Shown: piece after piece, positions 1,562 through 25,935 of the stretch
How the letters are laid out: each line of letters opens with the position of its first letter
Numbering within the stretch: position 1 is the stretch's first letter
From: Planctomycetota bacterium
Lineage (GTDB): Bacteria > Planctomycetota > Phycisphaerae > Sedimentisphaerales > Anaerobacaceae
DNA: 37,146 nucleotides
NCBI GenBank assembly: GCA_014384025.1
Contig: JACNGQ010000369.1
Coordinates: 1 to 37,146 of the forward strand
Reading direction: 5' to 3'
Notes under the pieces: model-generated
Database searches by the model: none
The model's input: only the letters and a program-made list of their open reading frames with translations
Told to the model about the DNA's origin: nothing
Program-made: the position numbers and the translations under genes

Positions 1562-2562
1562 TCAGTAAACTTGATGATTTCATTCATCATCAGGACCGAC
1601 TCGTATGGAAAACGGCCAACGGCGGTTTCTCCCGAAAGCATAACGAAGTCGGTACCATCGATAATTGCGTTTGCGACGTCTGTAACCTCGGCACGTGTCG
1701 GCTTGATGTGTTCGGTCATGTGTTCCAGCATCTGAGTGGCTGTAATTACGAACTTTCCCGCCGCATTGGATTTTTTTATTATGCGCTTTTGGATTATGGG
1801 GACTTCATGAATCGGGACAGCAACGCCCATATCGCCGCGAGCTATCATTATTCCATCCGCGGCATCAATTATCCCGTCAATATTATCTATCGCCTGCCTG
1901 CTTTCAATTTTTGCCACTATCCGACATTCGGGCAATCCCGGCTTTATCAGTGAAGCGGCCTGCCGAACATCATTTTCATCCCGCACAAACGACAAGGCGA
2001 TATAGTCAACACCGTGCTCTATACCGAATTCAATGTCCTTTTTGTCTTTTGCGGTTATCCCTTCGAATTCGAGGTCCACCCCGGGAATATTTATACCTTT
2101 TCTTTCCTTGAGTATGCCGCCTTCGACAACCACCGCTTTTATACTGTTTACAGAGCTGCTCTGGACGCGGAGGACCAGATTACCATCGTCAATATATATA
2201 AGCTGCCCCGGTTGGATCCTGTTCAAATCACCTTCATAGTCGAATGGTATCATTCGCTGCCCGGATGCTTCGATGTCATTTGTCAGCCAGACTACCGTGC
2301 GGTTCTTTAATAATCTGGTTTTGGAGCCTTTGAAACGCCCGATTCTTATTCTAAAACCCTCAAGGTCCTGCATTATTCGAATGTGCCGTCTATACTTACT
2401 GTTTAACTTTCGAACAAGCTTTATTGCATCGAGATGTTTCTCATGGCTGCCGTGGGAAAAATTCAGCCTGACTACATCCAGACCGGCGGTAAACATTTTC
2501 CGCAGGACTGTGTAGTTTCTGCTGGCTGGGCCTAAAGTGGCGATTATTTGCGTTTTGGGCAT
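1540..2562 (-). CDS. Pyruvate kinase-like protein lacking the C-terminal domain
   Basis: The protein is homologous to pyruvate kinase, which converts phosphoenolpyruvate and ADP to pyruvate and ATP in the cytoplasm. Visible motifs are TLGPAS (9-14), RLNFSHG (32-38), the substrate lysine in VAKIES (K218, E220), the metal-site region ARGDMGV (241-247), TATQMLE (274-280) and PTRAEVTDVANA (288-299), ending with MLSGETAVGRFP (308-319). The inserted B domain (about 72-165) is present. At 340 residues it stops right after the A domain, whereas typical enzymes have about 470 residues with a C-terminal allosteric domain. Canonical DTKGPE is DLEGFR (66-71), and the usual GVE after RGD(L/M) is GVA. Activity is therefore plausible but regulation must differ; a non-canonical role is possible. 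The Shine-Dalgarno is weak. There is no frame continuing beyond the stop that resembles the missing domain. Confidence 0.88.
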   Translation of the reverse strand: MPKTQIIATLGPASRNYTVLRKMFTAGLDVVRLNFSHGSHEKHLDAIKLVRKLNSKYRRHIRIMQDLEGFRIRIGRFKGSKTRLLKNRTVVWLTNDIEASGQRMIPFDYEGDLNRIQPGQLIYIDDGNLVLRVQSSSVNSIKAVVVEGGILKERKGINIPGVDLEFEGITAKDKKDIEFGIEHGVDYIALSFVRDENDVRQAASLIKPGLPECRIVAKIESRQAIDNIDGIIDAADGIMIARGDMGVAVPIHEVPIIQKRIIKKSNAAGKFVITATQMLEHMTEHIKPTRAEVTDVANAIIDGTDFVMLSGETAVGRFPYESVLMMNEIIKFTEKSMPEL

Positions 2563-2780
2563 TTCTTCAAGTTCCGATTAGTCTGATATTTGTCTCTGAG
2601 TTAGTCATTTAGACGCTATAGATAATGATTTGTCAATAAGCAAACGCCAGACTTGCCCGGAAAATATCAAACAATCGCCCGTTACCTGCCAAGTCGGCTC
2701 TGCGAAGCTACGCAGGAACAAGCCGGTCATTGTTCGAAATGTGGTACTCAGGCGAATGGAAAACAAACAGCCTGTCTTTT

Positions 2781-2984
2781 TCACAGAAGAACCGGAACGC
2801 ACAGATTATCAGCACTTCTTGCTGTACGAGAGCAGTGGTTGCACATATACCTCACATCTTCTACTAAAGTATTGTATTCCTGCTCGTTAGTCAGATGAAA
2901 GCCTTGAGATTTAATATAGCAAAGGTGCTCATTATGCAGTTCCGAGTTACATATCGAATTACTTTTTAATGTTTCCTGAAGCAT
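2781..2984 (-). CDS. Small Cys-containing protein, possible zinc-binding, 67 aa
   Basis: The start at 2984 is chosen because an AAGGAG (2994-2999 on the complement) lies 9 bases upstream of that ATG; the frame is open further upstream but without a ribosome site. The product has cysteines at 12, 22, 48, 51 and 62. The C-terminal part, CNHCSRTARSADNLCVP (48-64), looks like a CxxC...C metal site. No signal peptide or membrane segment is seen. I do not recognise a named family; I have a vague memory of similar small proteins with a CxxCGRTA-type ending in planctomycetes, which is not proof. It lies alone between the pyruvate kinase and amidohydrolase genes with gaps of about 170-220 bases on both sides. 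Function unknown; a small metal-binding or regulatory protein is possible. Confidence 0.6.
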   Translation of the reverse strand: MLQETLKSNSICNSELHNEHLCYIKSQGFHLTNEQEYNTLVEDVRYMCNHCSRTARSADNLCVPVLL

Positions 2985-3151
2985 GATGAATGTCTCCTTA
3001 CTAATAATTTCTAAGTCAAAAGCTAATACGACATTGCCGGCAGAGGAGTTCACACCAATTTGTCTCAGAAAATATATTTAAAATATCCCCCCTGACTTAC
3101 CAAGGGTTGTTTTATACCCCAGAGATGGCAGAGGGCATTGTGGTTATGGCT

Positions 3152-4915
3152 CTACTCGAAAATGAGCGTGCCGAACTTTTCGAACTCGTGAAAACTGCCC
3201 CCTACCCGGGCCCAGTCCCAGCTTGTGCTCTTTTCGTCATCGTAATCAACGCGATAGAAATTGGCTCGCCATCGCGTTCCGGGCTGCGGGGGAACGTTTT
3301 GCAGAGGTTTGAGTAAATCGTACGGCACAAAAACCTCGGCCTTCCAGCCCGCTACACTAGCGCCAGATTGCTTCGGGCCGCCGATAGTCGTCGTGGCCGT
3401 TTGCGTTTTTCGTTTACCATCGTAATGCCATGGCCGCCAGCCGAGGAACTCGCCGCCGAAATTTGGGATGAGAATCGGCAGCTCAAAACCAAGCGGTGAA
3501 ATTTCGTATTCGAAGTAAACCGGGTACCGCTCGTCCGGCCACAAGAAGAACTCAAACACATCTTCATTCCACAAATCGAGAAAGTCCGCCTTCATAGTGG
3601 CAGTAATAGTACGGTCCTCGGCCTCCATTAACACGTACAGTCCCGTCTCGGAGTATAGCATCTTTACATGGGTCTTATACTTATGACCATCGACGGTACG
3701 CAGGTTAAGCGGTTCCCAGTCGGCTTTCTTCCAGGCGGACGCATCGCCCCGGCCGTTTACGACAAAATCTTCCGTCCGCCGGATCCGAAGTGTTTTTGCA
3801 GAAGGCCGTCCGAAGAATATTCGCTCAGCGTTCTTATTATAGATTTTTTCCAGCACGTCTTCCGGTAAGAACAACCCGTAAATCATCCAGAATCCCTGCC
3901 TCTGGTGCCCTCCCGCGCAGTCAAAATATTCATCGTCGGTTTCCAGAAAGCGGTAATATATCCGGTATGCGTCGCGGCGGGGCGTAGTATCAGTACCGAA
4001 CATGATGCGGTCCTGATACTTCAGGAAAAACTTCCGTGCTGTATATGGCTGCCTGCCCAATTCTGAAATCCGCGCGTCAACGTCGATGTACATATTGGGG
4101 TACCTTTCCAGCCACTTCCCGACTGTATCAAGGTCTTCGGGATTGTTGCCGAAGTGGGCGCAAATGAAAGTGGTTTTTGGGTGTTTGGCGATAGCGCGAT
4201 TTCGTTGCATCAGGATTTCATCGCGTGAGGGGAACCGCTCACCGTGGAACAGCCAGTTCGGATGTTCATTCAGCTCGTGCCAGCGTTCATTGAATCGATC
4301 CAGCGGAGTAAAAAAAGCTGCCGGGTCGGCAACGTGAATCACCACGGGCCGTTTATGCTTGGCGCACATTTGCCAGACAGGGTCCAGCTTGGGATCATCA
4401 ACCGGCATGAGCTTGCCGTTTTTATAACGGTAGGACAGTCCGAGTGACTTGTGGAATTTCAGCCCCTTCGCACCGGCCTTAAAACTCTCTTCGAGCCGCC
4501 TTGCCTCGCGACGACCCCAGTTCTCGTTGTCAATTCCATCGAAATTCAGCAGCGCAAACGTCAGGAATCGTTCGGGATATGCCTCATCCAGTGCCGATAG
4601 AGTCTCCTTCAACTGTTCGCCCCACCCGCCGTCGAGGTTGACGACCGTACGGACACCGGCGGCATCCATCTCCCCAAGATACTGCTTCACCTGTTCAGAC
4701 GTGAGGCGGTCTTTGCCCCCGCCCAAATGATTGTGAACGTCGATTACCGGGTACGCGGGCTTGTTGACCACACTCTCTTTTGTCTTGAGCATCGACCGGG
4801 GCTGCCAGTCACCAAGCTTGAGTTCACGAATATCACCGGACTGCCCGGCAAATACCAAAGAACCAAAACCAATCGTCTCGATTAATACTAATCCCATAAA
4901 TAAACGCATTTTCAT
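3152..4915 (-). CDS. Secreted amidohydrolase-family TIM barrel with C-terminal CBM9-like domain
   Basis: Residues 1-23 form a Sec signal peptide. The amidohydrolase-2 type barrel spans about 55-370, with DVHNH (H61, H63), VVIHVAD (H194), CAHFG (H254) and FGTDT (D309) as the expected metal and catalytic residues. Residues about 380-587 form a second beta-rich domain with a TEDFVVNG...W start and NEDVFEFF (a WNDD-like motif), typical of family 9-like carbohydrate-binding modules that planctomycetes attach to many enzymes. The amidohydrolase-2 group includes decarboxylases and lactonases, so hydrolysis of a lactone or other carbonyl bond is plausible; the substrate is unknown. The ATG is preceded by GAGGAG. 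It begins 15 bases after the stop of the SMP-30/metallo-beta-lactamase gene, so the two are probably co-transcribed. Confidence 0.85.
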   Translation of the reverse strand: MKMRLFMGLVLIETIGFGSLVFAGQSGDIRELKLGDWQPRSMLKTKESVVNKPAYPVIDVHNHLGGGKDRLTSEQVKQYLGEMDAAGVRTVVNLDGGWGEQLKETLSALDEAYPERFLTFALLNFDGIDNENWGRREARRLEESFKAGAKGLKFHKSLGLSYRYKNGKLMPVDDPKLDPVWQMCAKHKRPVVIHVADPAAFFTPLDRFNERWHELNEHPNWLFHGERFPSRDEILMQRNRAIAKHPKTTFICAHFGNNPEDLDTVGKWLERYPNMYIDVDARISELGRQPYTARKFFLKYQDRIMFGTDTTPRRDAYRIYYRFLETDDEYFDCAGGHQRQGFWMIYGLFLPEDVLEKIYNKNAERIFFGRPSAKTLRIRRTEDFVVNGRGDASAWKKADWEPLNLRTVDGHKYKTHVKMLYSETGLYVLMEAEDRTITATMKADFLDLWNEDVFEFFLWPDERYPVYFEYEISPLGFELPILIPNFGGEFLGWRPWHYDGKRKTQTATTTIGGPKQSGASVAGWKAEVFVPYDLLKPLQNVPPQPGTRWRANFYRVDYDDEKSTSWDWARVGGSFHEFEKFGTLIFE

Positions 4916-15491: not shown

Positions 15492-16019
15492 ATGGTGTTA
15501 ACAGAAACAAGTATGTGCCAAAAAAATGTAGGGACAGCAACCGAGGTTTTTGCCGAATACAGAGATTTTATTCATATGGTGATCTATTCCCAGGTTAAGA
15601 ATAAATCTCATGCAGATGATATATTCCAGAATTTCTTTCTTTCGCTTGTTTCTAAACCAATACCCCGGAATGTCAAAAATATCAAAAGCTATCTCTATAG
15701 AGCTATATGTAACGATATTGTAGATACTCAACGTCAGGTAGAAAGATATAATGCACAAATTCATAAATATCAAGAAAGATGTAATTTTTCAATCAACAAA
15801 ACCGAGCCGGAAAACGCCTTAATTAAAGATGAGCAGATGAATAAGATGTTCGGTCTTATTAAAGGGCGATTAACGAGCAGTCAATCTCAGGCGATCGCTT
15901 TACGGTATGGGACTAACCATACTATAGAGGAAGTCGCTGAGAAAATGGGTGTAAAGTGTAAGTCTGTCAGCAGGTATATCTGCACAGGGCTCAGAAGAAT
16001 GCGTCAATCTTTTAAGTGA
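15492..16019 (+). CDS. ECF-type RNA polymerase sigma factor
   Basis: The product is a 175-residue sigma70-family protein with region 2 at about 18-85 (VFAEYRDFIHM, HADDIFQNFF, IKSYLYRAICNDIVDTQR) and region 4 at about 125-173 (LTSSQSQAIALRYG, TIEEVAEKMGVKCKSVSRYI helix-turn-helix, LRRMRQ). The order and length fit ECF sigma factors. AAAGGA lies 11 bases before the ATG; the next Met, 7 codons in, is an alternative start. The anti-sigma gene follows 4 bases after the stop codon, the standard arrangement for an ECF factor held by a membrane anti-sigma factor. Targets are unknown; the adjacent C39 and pseudopilin genes are candidates by position only. Confidence 0.92.
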   Translation: MVLTETSMCQKNVGTATEVFAEYRDFIHMVIYSQVKNKSHADDIFQNFFLSLVSKPIPRNVKNIKSYLYRAICNDIVDTQRQVERYNAQIHKYQERCNFSINKTEPENALIKDEQMNKMFGLIKGRLTSSQSQAIALRYGTNHTIEEVAEKMGVKCKSVSRYICTGLRRMRQSFK

Positions 16020-16023
16020 GGCT

Positions 16024-17406
16024 ATGATAGTGAACAATCGAAACCATAGTTCTATGTGTGAAGAGGCTAAGCTGTATTATTATGACTGTCTATGTGAAGA
16101 GAGCTGCGGGCTCATCCCGCAATCTACCAGTAACCACATAGAACGGTGTCGGCACTGCCAAAAGCAAATAAACCGGCTTAAAGTTGTGTTATCGCAAAAA
16201 GATTTCATCAAATCAGAGCAGAGACAAAACAGTTCCGCTGTTACTGCCATGCTGGAGCTTCACTTCGCATATATTGATAAGTATGTAACCTGCGATACAG
16301 TCAGGCCGTTTCTTCCCGGTATGTTAGACCCGGCTATAGAGATTAGAATACCAACACCAATAACGGCACATCTGGACAATTGCCAAAAGTGCACCGAAGA
16401 TTTAGGGACGCTCCAAAGGCTGAATCTTAACAGCACGCAATTATACGGCTTAAGCCAGTTCTTTGCGAAAGGGTATTCCCCGGACACCGCGGAGTATTCC
16501 GAAATAGCTGCATCTGTGACGGCTATGGCCGAACGGGCGGATTCTGAGATTGTTACAATATATCACGTAGATGAATCCGGAAAAGCCCGCAAGGCCGGCG
16601 AATCAGAGGACCTTTATGCCGGTTTTCCAATCAGGGTAGAAGTAATAAAACAGAAAGTAGATGTTGAACAGCCCGCTCCAACCTTAAATTTTGCTGCCGC
16701 CTTGAGAGAAAAAGTCTCAGCAATGAATCTGAAACCTTTTCTAAAAGTCGGCGTTGTAGCAGTGGCGGTTATATTAATAGGCTTTGCGCTATTGCTCAAT
16801 ACGCCCTCCGCCAAAGCAGTTACTTTAGAGCAGATTTACAAAGCTGTTGACTCCGTAAAAAATGTCTATATCTCAAGTTTTAAAGTGGGCGGTAGCGAGC
16901 CGACACAAGAGGAATGGATATCACAGACGCTGAATATTTATATGACCAAAACTGCATCTGCAAAAGTGTCAGTCTTGTGGGATATTAAAAATACCCAAAA
17001 AAAGATTTTGCCATTTGAAACCGGCGTAATGGAAACAAACCAACTGCTTGAAGATGACCTTCTCGGTATCAAACATGAAATAAAAGGCTCTTTAGGTTTC
17101 ATGCCATTTAATGATATATCCGAAATTCCTCTAGACTCTAAATTACACCCCATAAATGATGAAATCCTGGAAGTAGCCGAAGGAATTGAGATATACGAGT
17201 TGACATGGCCTAAGAGAAAAAAACTTAGCGGTTCCGCCGAATTCAAGATATGGCGGGTATTTGTAGATGCAAAGACGAGCTTGCCTCAAAAAGTCGAGTG
17301 GTATACAAAACTCGATGATGCTGAGCTTTTACTGGAAACAGTAATGGTAATTGAATATTTGGATGATAACCAAATGCAGAAAGCTGTTAAAGAAGCAGGA
17401 TTTTAG
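16024..17406 (+). CDS. Membrane anti-sigma factor with two zinc-finger-like modules and extracytoplasmic sensor domain
   Basis: The start lies 4 bases after the sigma-factor stop, implying translational coupling. The cytoplasmic N-terminus has two HxxxCxxC motifs, HIERCRHC (H38, C42, C45) and HLDNCQKC (H116, C120, C123), as in zinc anti-sigma (ZAS) domains, which normally occur once. A membrane helix spans about 241-259. The exported part (262-460) contains LEQIYKAVDSVKNVYISS and repeated beta strands, reminiscent of LolA/RseB-like folds; that resemblance is my inference. By analogy with ECF systems, an envelope signal would release the sigma factor. Its stop codon overlaps that of the convergent pseudopilin gene by 4 bases, leaving no space for a separate terminator. 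Confidence 0.85.
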   Translation: MIVNNRNHSSMCEEAKLYYYDCLCEESCGLIPQSTSNHIERCRHCQKQINRLKVVLSQKDFIKSEQRQNSSAVTAMLELHFAYIDKYVTCDTVRPFLPGMLDPAIEIRIPTPITAHLDNCQKCTEDLGTLQRLNLNSTQLYGLSQFFAKGYSPDTAEYSEIAASVTAMAERADSEIVTIYHVDESGKARKAGESEDLYAGFPIRVEVIKQKVDVEQPAPTLNFAAALREKVSAMNLKPFLKVGVVAVAVILIGFALLLNTPSAKAVTLEQIYKAVDSVKNVYISSFKVGGSEPTQEEWISQTLNIYMTKTASAKVSVLWDIKNTQKKILPFETGVMETNQLLEDDLLGIKHEIKGSLGFMPFNDISEIPLDSKLHPINDEILEVAEGIEIYELTWPKRKKLSGSAEFKIWRVFVDAKTSLPQKVEWYTKLDDAELLLETVMVIEYLDDNQMQKAVKEAGF

Positions 17407-18209
17407 TCATTGTTGTTTTGGATTGGCCGCCAGAGTGGATAACGATTATTGTAGCCGGTTTCGGTTTTTTCAACAAATAACTCTTCAGCTTGTCTGCGTT
17501 CGACATGTCCATCAACAAATCCGACGTTGACTTTTTTATTCGGATGGCGGCCGATTATAGCGTCCCATTTCTGGCTGGGCCATAAAGTTTTTTCTTTGTT
17601 AATCTCAAGGCCGGGCACGTAAGCAGCATCTGCGATAGAACTAACGAGAGACATAGGCGGAACATCCGAAACATGCCACCAGTTTATTATGCTGTAGCCG
17701 CTGTCAACTATCAGTAGAGTTTCTCCTTGTCTTTGTATATCACTTTTGCTCAAAGGCGTTCCGACAAATTCCGCACGGCTTTTTCTGCCGTTCGAGTTTT
17801 TACATATGGATTGGTTCACGCCGTAATTACTATGAAGGACATGTTCAATTTGAGGATCATTTATCCGTCTGGATGGGCACCAAAGCGGCGCTTTTTTGCC
17901 CTTGTTTTTTCTGGAATGGTCGGAAATATGATTAAACCACCACCATCCAATTCTATCGTACAAGGGATTCCCGGGTTCGCCGCCGGGAGGTAGTTCTTGA
18001 GGAGTGTCATCAAAAGCATGTGGGAAAGTTCCGTTGTCGTCTTCATACATAGTCAAACTTAAGACCAGTTGTTTAATTTGTGAGCTGCACAGAAGGGTTT
18101 CAGCTTGCAGTCTTGAGATTCGTAACGAAGGTAATAATATGGCTATCATCAAGGCAATTACTGCAACAACAACAAGCAGTTCGATAAGTGTAAAGCCCTC
18201 GCGTTTCAT
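17403..18209 (-). CDS. Pseudopilin-like protein with type IV prepilin N-terminus and H-X-DG motif
   Basis: The N-terminus GFTLIELLVVVAVIALMIAILLP is shortened here to its key parts: G5/F6 is the prepilin-peptidase site, E10 is the conserved +5 glutamate, and residues 7-28 are the hydrophobic helix. The C-terminus has RHPNKKVNVGFVDGH (221-235), the planctomycete H-Xn-DG motif, with 10 rather than the usual 9 residues between His and Asp-Gly. Such proteins are abundant in Planctomycetota and are presumed to belong to type II secretion or pilus-like assemblies, but few have known roles. The ribosome site is poor (AAAGG 2 bases before ATG) and a consensus promoter lies right at the start codon, suggesting a leaderless or nearly leaderless message. 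It is separated from the C39 gene upstream by a strong terminator. Confidence 0.88.
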   Translation of the reverse strand: MKREGFTLIELLVVVAVIALMIAILLPSLRISRLQAETLLCSSQIKQLVLSLTMYEDDNGTFPHAFDDTPQELPPGGEPGNPLYDRIGWWWFNHISDHSRKNKGKKAPLWCPSRRINDPQIEHVLHSNYGVNQSICKNSNGRKSRAEFVGTPLSKSDIQRQGETLLIVDSGYSIINWWHVSDVPPMSLVSSIADAAYVPGLEINKEKTLWPSQKWDAIIGRHPNKKVNVGFVDGHVERRQAEELFVEKTETGYNNRYPLWRPIQNNND

Positions 18210-18317: not shown

Positions 18318-20120
18318 TTAATCACATGCCCGCATATAATAGTAACTCCAACTGCCCGTGTCGCAGCTCCATGGGTCATAAGGGTCGTTGAAACAGGGTT
18401 TACTTGCGCTTCTGATCTTAGAAGAAGTGCTGCAGCTTCCGCTCGGGGCCGATTCGCATCCCCAGCGTTCAAACCATACCTGGTAGCTGCCGCCGCACAC
18501 TCCGCCGTATTCGTCGCAAAACGAAACATCGTATTCCTGCAATAGGTCTGTGCACGAATAGCCTGTGCCGCCGATGATATTTTGAAGCTGGTTATCGGCA
18601 ATTTCAACAAAGCTGTCTTGTATTTTGATAGGCTGGTCTGAAACCAAAAGAGCAATCCCCTCAGTCCAGTCCATATCAAAAAAGGCGACGTCCGTACGAT
18701 AGAAGAATTTATTGTTTGTTAAATCTATACTGCTGACATACCTTTCGTCAATGTCCCCAAGTACGATGAAATGATTCTTCTCCGGAATATGAAGGATTAC
18801 CTCACAGCCGTCCAGCTTTTGAAGCGCTTTGATATCGAGCTGAACAGCTCGGCAATAAAGACCCAGACGCTGTACGAATTCCTTCATCGCATCAAGGCTT
18901 GTGGTCTTATCCGGCCCGCTTACTAATTGTGCGAGCTGCTGGTCGGTAACATCCTTACCTGACCGCGAAACTGCATATTTTAATGCCGCCGTTGCGCAGT
19001 TTTGTAACTGTGTGCCTTCGGATGCTGCGAAAGATAATCTTTCAAGCAAGAGCTTGTCCGTATCGACAGTGTGTGAGTAGTTGTACATTGCAGGTTTATC
19101 GGTAAGATAGGAACGATACTCTATCAATGCGTTGGCCTCGTATTCGATGTTAAAACTCCCCGGTGCCGGAGTTTCACCACTAATAGTAGTAAGTACCCAG
19201 ACGTCGTAAGCCAATAGCTGTTTGTTCCAGGCATCGTATTGCTCTATCGAAATATTAGCTGGAACCCATTGACCTGAGACTAATTGGTAGCTGCCGTATT
19301 GTGAGGAAGTGACAGTATTACTGCCGTTCATCGAAGCTGAAATAACTGCATAATCTTTTTCCGGGTCCATTACAAAGACCATTTCTGAGCCGTCCGGATT
19401 GTTAATTGTCATACGTATCTGGGTTTGGTTATCGATATCTTTCTCTTCTGCCGATGTTTCGGCCGCCGAAAGGTTCTCGTATGTGCAATAGCCATGTCCC
19501 CAGGGAATGACCCCGGCGGTTAAAGGCCCTTGAATGGAATGTTTGATTGAACCCATAGTATCAGTGAATTCTTGATTGGCGGGTAAACAATACATTGTGT
19601 ATTGTTGGCCGTTCCATGCAAATATACGTCGGGTGTTCCAGTCTAAATCAAACTGATCGGTCATGAAATTGCCTGCTAAGCATGCCTCAGGCGTTACTGA
19701 GTCTGTTCGTGAGCTTACGTTGATTTCCCAGTAGAACCTGTCCCCGTCAAATCTTACTTCCACATTCGAATTCATTGTGTATTTGTTGGACAGCCTGTAA
19801 CGGACATTGAATGGAATGGCATCAAGCATCATTGTCTGTAATCCCTGGGTTAATTCCCGTTTGTTTGGATTGCTTTGATAACCTTTAATTTGTTCGGTGA
19901 TTTGAAGGTTAATCTCAGCTATGCCACTTGTTTTCGGTGCCCGGTATTCTTCATGTTTGGCCTCGATTGTACCTGCAGATATCCAGGTATCTCTTGGCTG
20001 GCTTGTTAGCTTTTCGAGGATTTGCAAAATCTCACCTCTGTCCAGCGGCCTGTCTGCAAAAGAAATACAGCTGATAGTTAGTGGCAACAAAATTGCGGTT
20101 AAGAAATGTTTCGTGTTCAT
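18318..20120 (-). CDS. Secreted C39-peptidase protein with double-glycine motif and 8-cysteine tail
   Basis: The ATG at 20120 is chosen because AAGGAGG lies 5 bases upstream; earlier in-frame starts overlap that site. Residues 1-22 form a signal peptide. Residues about 25-355 are beta-rich and unassigned. Residues about 362-496 align with C39 (bacteriocin-processing) peptidases: LQNCATAALKYA (C375), TSLDAMKEFVQRLGL, LDIKALQKLDG, KNHFIVLGDID (H450) and SSIDLT (D466), ending GIALLV. Residues 505-518 read FVEIADNQLQNIIGG, which resembles the double-glycine leaders cut by C39 peptidases. The last 82 residues have cysteines at 523, 535, 542, 555, 563, 576, 586 and 599. Normal C39 domains sit in ABC exporters and act on separate peptides; no transporter domain is present here. 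I infer a self-processing secreted precursor. The ECF/anti-sigma pair lies nearby, beyond the pseudopilin gene. Confidence 0.85.
   Translation of the reverse strand: MNTKHFLTAILLPLTISCISFADRPLDRGEILQILEKLTSQPRDTWISAGTIEAKHEEYRAPKTSGIAEINLQITEQIKGYQSNPNKRELTQGLQTMMLDAIPFNVRYRLSNKYTMNSNVEVRFDGDRFYWEINVSSRTDSVTPEACLAGNFMTDQFDLDWNTRRIFAWNGQQYTMYCLPANQEFTDTMGSIKHSIQGPLTAGVIPWGHGYCTYENLSAAETSAEEKDIDNQTQIRMTINNPDGSEMVFVMDPEKDYAVISASMNGSNTVTSSQYGSYQLVSGQWVPANISIEQYDAWNKQLLAYDVWVLTTISGETPAPGSFNIEYEANALIEYRSYLTDKPAMYNYSHTVDTDKLLLERLSFAASEGTQLQNCATAALKYAVSRSGKDVTDQQLAQLVSGPDKTTSLDAMKEFVQRLGLYCRAVQLDIKALQKLDGCEVILHIPEKNHFIVLGDIDERYVSSIDLTNNKFFYRTDVAFFDMDWTEGIALLVSDQPIKIQDSFVEIADNQLQNIIGGTGYSCTDLLQEYDVSFCDEYGGVCGGSYQVWFERWGCESAPSGSCSTSSKIRSASKPCFNDPYDPWSCDTGSWSYYYMRACD
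18321..18566 (-). other. Predicted Cys-rich peptide after the GG site of the C39 protein
   Basis: This segment encodes residues 519-600 of the C39 protein, downstream of the GG pair encoded at 18567-18572. It has eight cysteines in 82 residues, six or more aromatic residues and many Gly/Ser, consistent with a disulfide-bonded secreted peptide. Release by cleavage is inferred from the leader-like sequence before it and has not been shown. Confidence 0.55.
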
Positions 20121-20470
20121 CATTACCTCCTTCACTTACTAAAGTTTCGACTAATACAAATGGTGACTTAACAACCAAAGTGTTTTAGGCCAGCCTGTGC
20201 TGCCTTTTCGTAAATGAAGGCGGTTCTGATGCTTGAAATGTTGATTGTTTTTTTGATTATTTCTAAAAATAATTACTCAGGAGGTAATATTTGGAGCAAA
20301 AATTGCGCATGCAGCTTTGAAATACACATTTCCTGCTCCTGAGAAAAGGATGCAATTTATGGGACGTGAAGACCGGTGGCAAGAAGAATGTTACCTCAGG
20401 TCTTTGTACCATGCAGATATCATTGCGACCCAGATCGATATCGGGTGCGAAAGAACGCTTATTTCTTCGA
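20121..20470. other. Intergenic region between SUMF1-domain gene and C39 gene
   Basis: This 350-base spacer holds the AAGGAGG ribosome site of the C39 gene (20126-20132). An AT-rich inverted repeat (ATTATTT...AAATAAT) near 20258-20278 may form a hairpin. I see no convincing -35/-10 pair for the C39 gene and no small gene. Confidence 0.4.
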
Positions 20471-24780: not shown

Positions 24781-25935
24781 CTACTTAGCAAATTTACCCG
24801 CAGGCCCTCCGGCGGTAAACAGAACTGCAAAGCGTGTTACTAAAGCACCGAGTAAGACATAGCCCAAAATCACCTGTACCATCAATAGAACCTGTCCCTG
24901 CCAGCTATCCGGATTAGCCGCAATATCTCCAAATCCCAATGTTGTCATTGTTACAACTGAAAAATACAACACATGGACAAATCCCCGAATATCACCGACT
25001 TGGCCATTAACCAAAACACAATTCGGCCACAATCGATAAGCTATGGCAAAAGTCACTGCCAATCCAAAGAACCATTCTATAATGCGCCATGTCCTAAGCC
25101 CATAATCACTCATCGACCAGAACAATCTAACCGGAGATGTTAGTAAAAGACGACCTATAACACAACAAGCTCCAAGTATTAATTCTCTCTTTGTTACAAA
25201 CCTCCTAAAAAATATATGGGCCTCATTCCCCCAATACCAATCCTCCCAGTTCATTCGCCTGATATTGTATTCTAAAAGCTGTTTTGTCGATGAATATATC
25301 CGCATACTATCTAGTCCTACAGCTTCAAACTTTGTGTTATGATCGACTTTACATGCTTCATTTAATAAAGTTTCACCATTAACAATAGCTCCTGAAAAAT
25401 CAGCCCCTTGGAGATTGGAATCTTGAAAACTTGCACCTTCCAAATGAGCTTCACTAAAGTCAGCTTCTTCTAGGTGAGCATATTCAAGGTATGCCCCTTC
25501 CAGATGGGCTCTCCGAAGGCTGGCTCCTTCCAGATGGGTCTCTGTAAGGTCGGTTTCTTCCAGAGGGGCTTCACTAAGGTTGGCTCCTTCTAGATGACTT
25601 CCATTTAAGTCGACTCCTCTCAGATATGATTCACTAAGATCAACTCCTTCCAGATGTGCTTCACCAAGTATGGTATTTTTCAGATAAGCTCCCAGAAGGT
25701 CAACACCTTCCATATGGGCTCCCCTAAGGTTAGCAGCTTCCAGATTGGCACTCTCAAGTTCCGCTTGCTGTAACCAGATTTCTGTATCTTCATTTTCATA
25801 ACGCCATTGATTCCATTTTTTAATCCCTTCAGAGCTTTCTGCTATGCACTTTTTTAGAAACTTAAGCTGCTCTTGGTCACAATGGGGATTTTTAGGATCA
25901 TAATCGTGCGTTTGAATTTTATTATCAAGGGGCAT
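24781..25935 (-). CDS. Pentapeptide-repeat protein fused to a two-TM potassium-channel-like domain
   Basis: The ATG has AAGGAG 7 bases upstream. Residues about 56-186 are pentapeptide repeats of A(N/H/D)LxxA type (LESANLEAANLRGAH and on), predicted to fold as a right-handed quadrilateral helix in the cytoplasm. Residues about 250-268 and 284-302 are membrane segments. Residues 318-337 form a pore helix and selectivity filter, TMTTLGFGD, followed by a last membrane helix at about 347-372: an Ion_trans_2 (KcsA-like) pore. The filter GFGD replaces the more usual GYGD, a variant found in several K+ channels. The repeat tract probably acts as a regulatory or protein-binding arm. It has its own promoter and is unrelated to the sugar genes around it; base composition is AT-richer than theirs. 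Confidence 0.88.
   Translation of the reverse strand: MPLDNKIQTHDYDPKNPHCDQEQLKFLKKCIAESSEGIKKWNQWRYENEDTEIWLQQAELESANLEAANLRGAHMEGVDLLGAYLKNTILGEAHLEGVDLSESYLRGVDLNGSHLEGANLSEAPLEETDLTETHLEGASLRRAHLEGAYLEYAHLEEADFSEAHLEGASFQDSNLQGADFSGAIVNGETLLNEACKVDHNTKFEAVGLDSMRIYSSTKQLLEYNIRRMNWEDWYWGNEAHIFFRRFVTKRELILGACCVIGRLLLTSPVRLFWSMSDYGLRTWRIIEWFFGLAVTFAIAYRLWPNCVLVNGQVGDIRGFVHVLYFSVVTMTTLGFGDIAANPDSWQGQVLLMVQVILGYVLLGALVTRFAVLFTAGGPAGKFAK

Follow-up and report, generated by a model that had tools for sequence, protein, structure and literature searches.

A C39 peptidase gene with a leader and a cysteine-rich tail in the same chain

The stretch of DNA analysed here (the window; 37,146 nucleotides from a Planctomycetota bacterium) carries a minus-strand gene for a 600-residue chain composed, in order, of a signal peptide, an N-terminal domain, a C39 peptidase domain, a double-glycine leader, and a tail with eight cysteines (Table 1). 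The mechanically called reading frame opens five codons earlier, at GTG 20,135, and encodes 605 residues; both frames stop at 18,318. We took the ATG at 20,120, preceded by AAGGAGGT, as the true start, and the corresponding residue, M6 of the longer frame, is the conserved start in 52 of the 54 rows of the homologue alignment. This conserved ATG fits the coordinates and the 600-residue numbering of the first-pass annotation, which are therefore kept here.

Table 1. Positions of the features discussed (window positions unless a locus handle is given).
Feature	Position	Strand	Basis
Complete gene, 600 aa	18318..20120	-	ORF, Pfam, homologue alignment
Predicted Sec signal peptide, about residues 1-22, MNTKHFLTAILLPLTISCISFA	20055..20120	-	Sequence and homologues
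N-terminal domain, about residues 23-360	19041..20054	-	Weak DUF4292 match
C39 peptidase domain, about residues 368-498	18627..19019	-	Pfam, PDB profile search, Foldseek
Catalytic Cys375 codon (C380 in 605-aa numbering)	18996..18998	-	Kept in 73/73
Catalytic His450 codon (H455 in 605-aa numbering)	18771..18773	-	Kept in 73/73
Catalytic Asp466 codon (D471 in 605-aa numbering)	18723..18725	-	Kept in 73/73
Double-glycine leader (FVEIADNQLQNIIGG), last two codons the putative GG cut site	18567..18611	-	Conserved hydrophobic positions and G[G/A/S]
82-aa tail after GG, eight cysteines, presumed released peptide	18321..18566	-	Cysteine conservation
Terminator-like hairpin and T run directly behind the C39 gene	18265..18293	-	12 pairs
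ECF-like promoter motif TCAACATT-N14-CGCCTT	20217..20244	-	Conserved upstream
Pseudopilin (prepilin N-terminus, H-X9-DG type)	17403..18209	-	Pfam/NCBIfam matches
Anti-sigma factor (two zinc-finger-like parts, one membrane helix, extracytoplasmic domain)	16024..17406	+	Sequence; RsrA-like match, E 3.6e-4
ECF sigma factor	15492..16019	+	Profile matches
Secreted family with MVGT...SD...W motif (absent from window)	L002:42-1235; L037:1819-2679; L045:2662-3429; L053:1393-2085; L068:8307-8933
Other exported or membrane-bound C39-like proteins	L143:2191-3654; L146:2455-3561; L147:2666-3508; L165:1486-2559

Conservation was counted over 73 distinct fused homologues, all from one planctomycete order. 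A hydrophobic, signal-like stretch lies within the first 60 residues in 72 of them. The N-terminal domain gave a sub-threshold Pfam match to DUF4292 (E 0.013), and its mean pairwise identity among 54 homologues is 45%. A common family for this domain and the outer domain of the neighbouring anti-sigma factor was considered and rejected, as hhalign gave no support.

The C39 domain and its active site

The domain scored 49.3 bits (E 5.5e-13) with the Pfam Peptidase_C39 profile, whose cut-off is 22, and a profile search against the PDB returned ComA as the best match (4.5e-9), together with PCAT1 and LahT. Structure prediction of a construct spanning the C39 domain, leader and tail gave a mean pLDDT of 52.9, with residues 11-80 of the construct mostly at 66-89, the rest of the C39 part lower, the leader region at about 70 as a short helix, and the tail at about 32. 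Foldseek matches were led by C39 peptidases including ComA, PCAT1 and LahT, at E-values no better than 1.7e-3. The full-length model, built from an alignment of four sequences, reached a pLDDT of 36.5 and was set aside as unusable.

The residues C375, H450 and D466, put forward in the first-pass annotation as a C39-like triad, are invariant in the homologues. By fold, profile and triad the domain belongs to peptidase family C39. An oxyanion glutamine six residues before the cysteine is usual in this family, outside the profile definition; it is present in one of 31 sequence clusters and absent from the other 30, so that C39 activity is not assured. In 70 of 73 homologues a near-invariant asparagine precedes the cysteine instead. 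The missing glutamine favours a reading in which the domain is no longer a protease and keeps hold of the leader in a groove, much as HlyB binds its substrate through its C39-like domain, while the tail stays attached in a structural or binding role. Against this speaks the triad itself, kept in 73/73, which a dead enzyme need not retain.

Two extra cysteines in the C39 domain tend to occur together (both in 46 homologues, neither in 12, one only in 15), with a Fisher p of 9e-5 that is optimistic because the sequences are related. The pairing suits a disulfide that could form in an oxidising compartment outside the cytoplasm. No ABC transporter was found in the chain or among its neighbours, and the genome encodes no C39-ABC protein, in line with the earlier description of the protein as transporter-free and setting it apart from the PCAT exporters. 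It is likewise not a member of the FapD equivalog, since it scored 13.7 bits against the NCBIfam C39_FapD cut-off of 330.

The leader and its putative cut site

A G[G/A/S] site at the end of the leader is kept in 70 of the 73 homologues (GG in 41, GA in 20, GS in 9); the remaining three have GL or GM. Upstream of it, 92%, 81% and 91% of rows have a hydrophobic residue at -4, -7 and -12, respectively, and most have one at -15 too; positions -13 and -10 are acidic. All three hydrophobic positions occur together with a G[GAS] site in 57/73, as expected of a double-glycine leader. According to a review of leader proteases, the C39 code consists of hydrophobic residues at -4, -7 and -12, and the FapD paper names GG, and sometimes GA, as the cut site (PMC5557850). 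The leader motif thus matches C39 specificity position by position.

The strict leader pattern falls within the 36-residue linker of 56 of the 73 proteins, whereas a 36-residue stretch of unrelated ORFs would be expected to contain it in about 2% of cases; its rate in other ORFs is about 0.6 per 1000 residues. This count, together with the conservation of the triad, the cysteines and G[GAS], ruled out a chance motif. None of the curated leader models exceeded its cut-off (bacteriocin_sig 13.7 bits against 15.7, ComC 13.4 against 20.4), and several of the best sub-threshold matches were to GG-leader models (plantaricin, ComC, class IIc). For the question of an inactive, leader-gripping domain, the three homologues with GL or GM count in its favour, and the retention of the G[GAS] residues themselves, beyond the leader-binding positions, counts against it.

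The tail and its distribution

Each of the eight tail cysteines is kept in 70 to 73 of the 73 homologues, and no known family or solved structure matched the tail in Pfam, NCBIfam or PDB. The first-pass annotation had proposed an exported chain in which a C39 peptidase is followed by its own GG leader and an eight-cysteine peptide. The Pfam match and the conserved leader and cysteines uphold this layout, and the homologue search that it called for found domain order, GG site and cysteines all conserved. A C39 part kept without a conserved GG or cysteine tail, the finding named there as contrary evidence, was not what the homologues showed.

Relatives of the protein are present in 56 of 89 genomes of the host's own family. 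Across the order, the tail was found in 83 of 161 genomes and, counting good-quality genomes alone, in 43 of 66; most have one copy. Outside the order, no convincing match was found in the class and phylum samples, where a few class matches at E 0.002-0.008 were short and lay in unrelated short frames; viral contigs gave no match. A tail-only match in the window's own genome (L004, E 0.6) was rejected because it sits in an unrelated enzyme frame. The same genome has a second fused copy (L002, genome G000, contig C223), which groups with another family of the order at an SH-aLRT support of 100 in a quick version of the tree, with the family labels of some rows assigned by hand. With an estimated contamination of 4.4% for this genome, the contig may reflect transfer or be a contaminating foreign one, and we did not count the copy as a sure paralogue.

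The mean distance of the tail among homologues, 0.64, against 0.54 for the C39 domain and 0.60 for the N-terminal domain, shows that it is not hypervariable. This bears on a functional variant of the release reading, in which the freed peptide would be a bacteriocin-like antagonist. Double-glycine leaders are typical of bacteriocins, and the sub-threshold hits to plantaricin, ComC and class IIc models point the same way, but the tail lacks hypervariability, is mostly single-copy in the 83/161 genomes, and has no recognised immunity gene in its locus. We regard a bacteriocin role as unlikely. The steady retention of the tail, at roughly one per genome, speaks rather for a housekeeping role as a surface or signal peptide.

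Several relatives carry, beside the C39 gene, a further secreted family with an MVGT...SD...W motif and sometimes a dockerin-like end. Other planctomycete proteins, exported or membrane-bound, have C39-like domains fused to thioredoxin-like, rhodanese-like or membrane parts (Table 1), and one exported chain (L059:1848-4634) has a C39-like domain ahead of RHS-like repeats, resembling a polymorphic toxin.

A split relative

One locus, L056 (genome G079, contig C198), encodes a tailless exported C39 protein of 466 residues (1803-3203) that ends right behind the C39 domain. Just upstream lie two tandem genes (609-992 and about 1294-1677); the product of each consists of a signal peptide followed by a GG leader and a peptide whose eight cysteines repeat the pattern of the tail. 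A tail profile built without them matched these peptides at E 5e-10 and 4e-5, well ahead of other short ORFs. The catalytic aspartate of the L056 C39 domain is displaced; a fused copy (L038) is present in the genome as well. L056 is the only split version found (n = 1). It strongly supports a protease-substrate relation and, more than any other finding, speaks for the tail as a substrate of the C39 domain rather than a part of it. The almost constant presence of the tail in the C39 chain fits a domain that merely holds its leader, but the existence of a split version opposes this, and on the combined evidence of glutamine, triad, cut site and L056 we consider an inactive domain distinctly unlikely. 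This relative, like the conserved locus described below, had escaped the first-pass annotation.

The conserved locus

Downstream of the C39 gene, 55 of 67 loci have an orthologue of the pseudopilin. The anti-sigma gene, in opposite orientation, is present in 33 of 42, and 20 of the 22 loci with enough flank have the ECF sigma gene. An ECF-like motif, TCAACATT-N14-CGCCTT, was found with at most three mismatches in 28 of 66 homologous upstream regions, against about 4.5% of shuffles, and in many homologues it precedes the gene by about 110 bases. No shared promoter motif was found upstream of the sigma or pilin genes. The strong hairpin between the C39 and pseudopilin genes, of a kind seen in a minority of relatives, means that the two need not be equally expressed. 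Elsewhere in the window (24781-25935), a single protein fuses a pentapeptide-repeat domain to an ion-channel domain.

The conserved pseudopilin and anti-sigma neighbours could also be taken to mean that an active C39 domain cuts a different exported protein, encoded in the locus or elsewhere in the genome, with the GG stretch and tail as a fixed targeting or anchoring module; the periplasmic C39 peptidase FapD is indeed required for export of other proteins (PMC5557850). Two observations make this highly improbable in our view: the leader motif sits in the same chain and fits C39 specificity position by position, and the tail homologues at L056 are separate exported peptides with a GG leader.

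Proposed mechanism

Taken together, a transporter-free, self-maturing peptide precursor is probably the best explanation. In this model, Sec would export the whole chain, as the signal peptide suggests. Outside the cytoplasm the C39 domain would bind the adjoining leader helix and cut after G[G/A/S], in the same molecule or a neighbouring one, and a peptide of 80-odd residues would be freed, held by four disulfides. We infer export, cleavage, action in cis and disulfides from sequence. Judging by linkage, the ECF sigma/anti-sigma pair of the locus probably controls expression, and a probable role for the pseudopilin is to help move the peptide across the outer membrane or onto it. We lean, if only slightly, towards the fuller proposal of a self-contained, transporter-free GG maturation system, characteristic of this one order, that crosses the membrane by Sec as one polypeptide, frees its peptide outside the cytoplasm, and has a dedicated ECF sigma factor and pseudopilin.

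Relation to known systems

With the C39 domains of PCAT/AMS exporters (ComA, PCAT1, LahT) the protein has in common the fold, the Cys-His-Asp triad, the -4/-7/-12 positions, and the G[G/A/S] site, but here a signal peptide replaces the ABC transporter, the putative substrate is in the same chain, and the oxyanion glutamine is absent. FapD of the Pseudomonas functional amyloid system, a Sec-exported C39 peptidase that acts in the periplasm and needs its active-site cysteine, is the nearest precedent for location; it is, however, separate from its substrate, belongs to a system without a known canonical GG leader, and has no cysteine-rich tail (PMC5557850). The releasing peptidases of polymorphic toxins offer a precedent for release in cis, being proteases inside an exported chain that are thought to free its C-terminal part, but they lack a GG leader and are HINT, ZU5, caspase-like, PrsW or papain-like domains, with C39 listed as a toxin domain (PMC3482391). 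The present protein departs from that class in its order-wide conserved tail and in a locus with no recognised immunity gene. An archaeal locus encodes a C39 peptidase together with several GG-leader proteins, although protease and peptides are in separate genes (PMC6393860).

No description of an exported C39 peptidase with its own GG leader and peptide was found in the searched papers. The novelty first claimed for the protein thus holds for the fusion and not for the location alone, a Sec-exported C39 peptidase being known in FapD. The C39 peptidase and the GG leader are known elements; their transporter-free fusion, with enzyme and putative substrate in one probably exported chain, is a new form of them.

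In the standard view, double-glycine processing is a cytoplasmic step tied to an ABC exporter. In this protein, the code that C39 enzymes read appears to act outside the cytoplasm and in cis, which would uncouple leader cleavage from transport. If so, little-cultured planctomycetes would hold a new class of disulfide-rich peptides, and such a compact fusion of enzyme and substrate allows C39 specificity to be tested directly.
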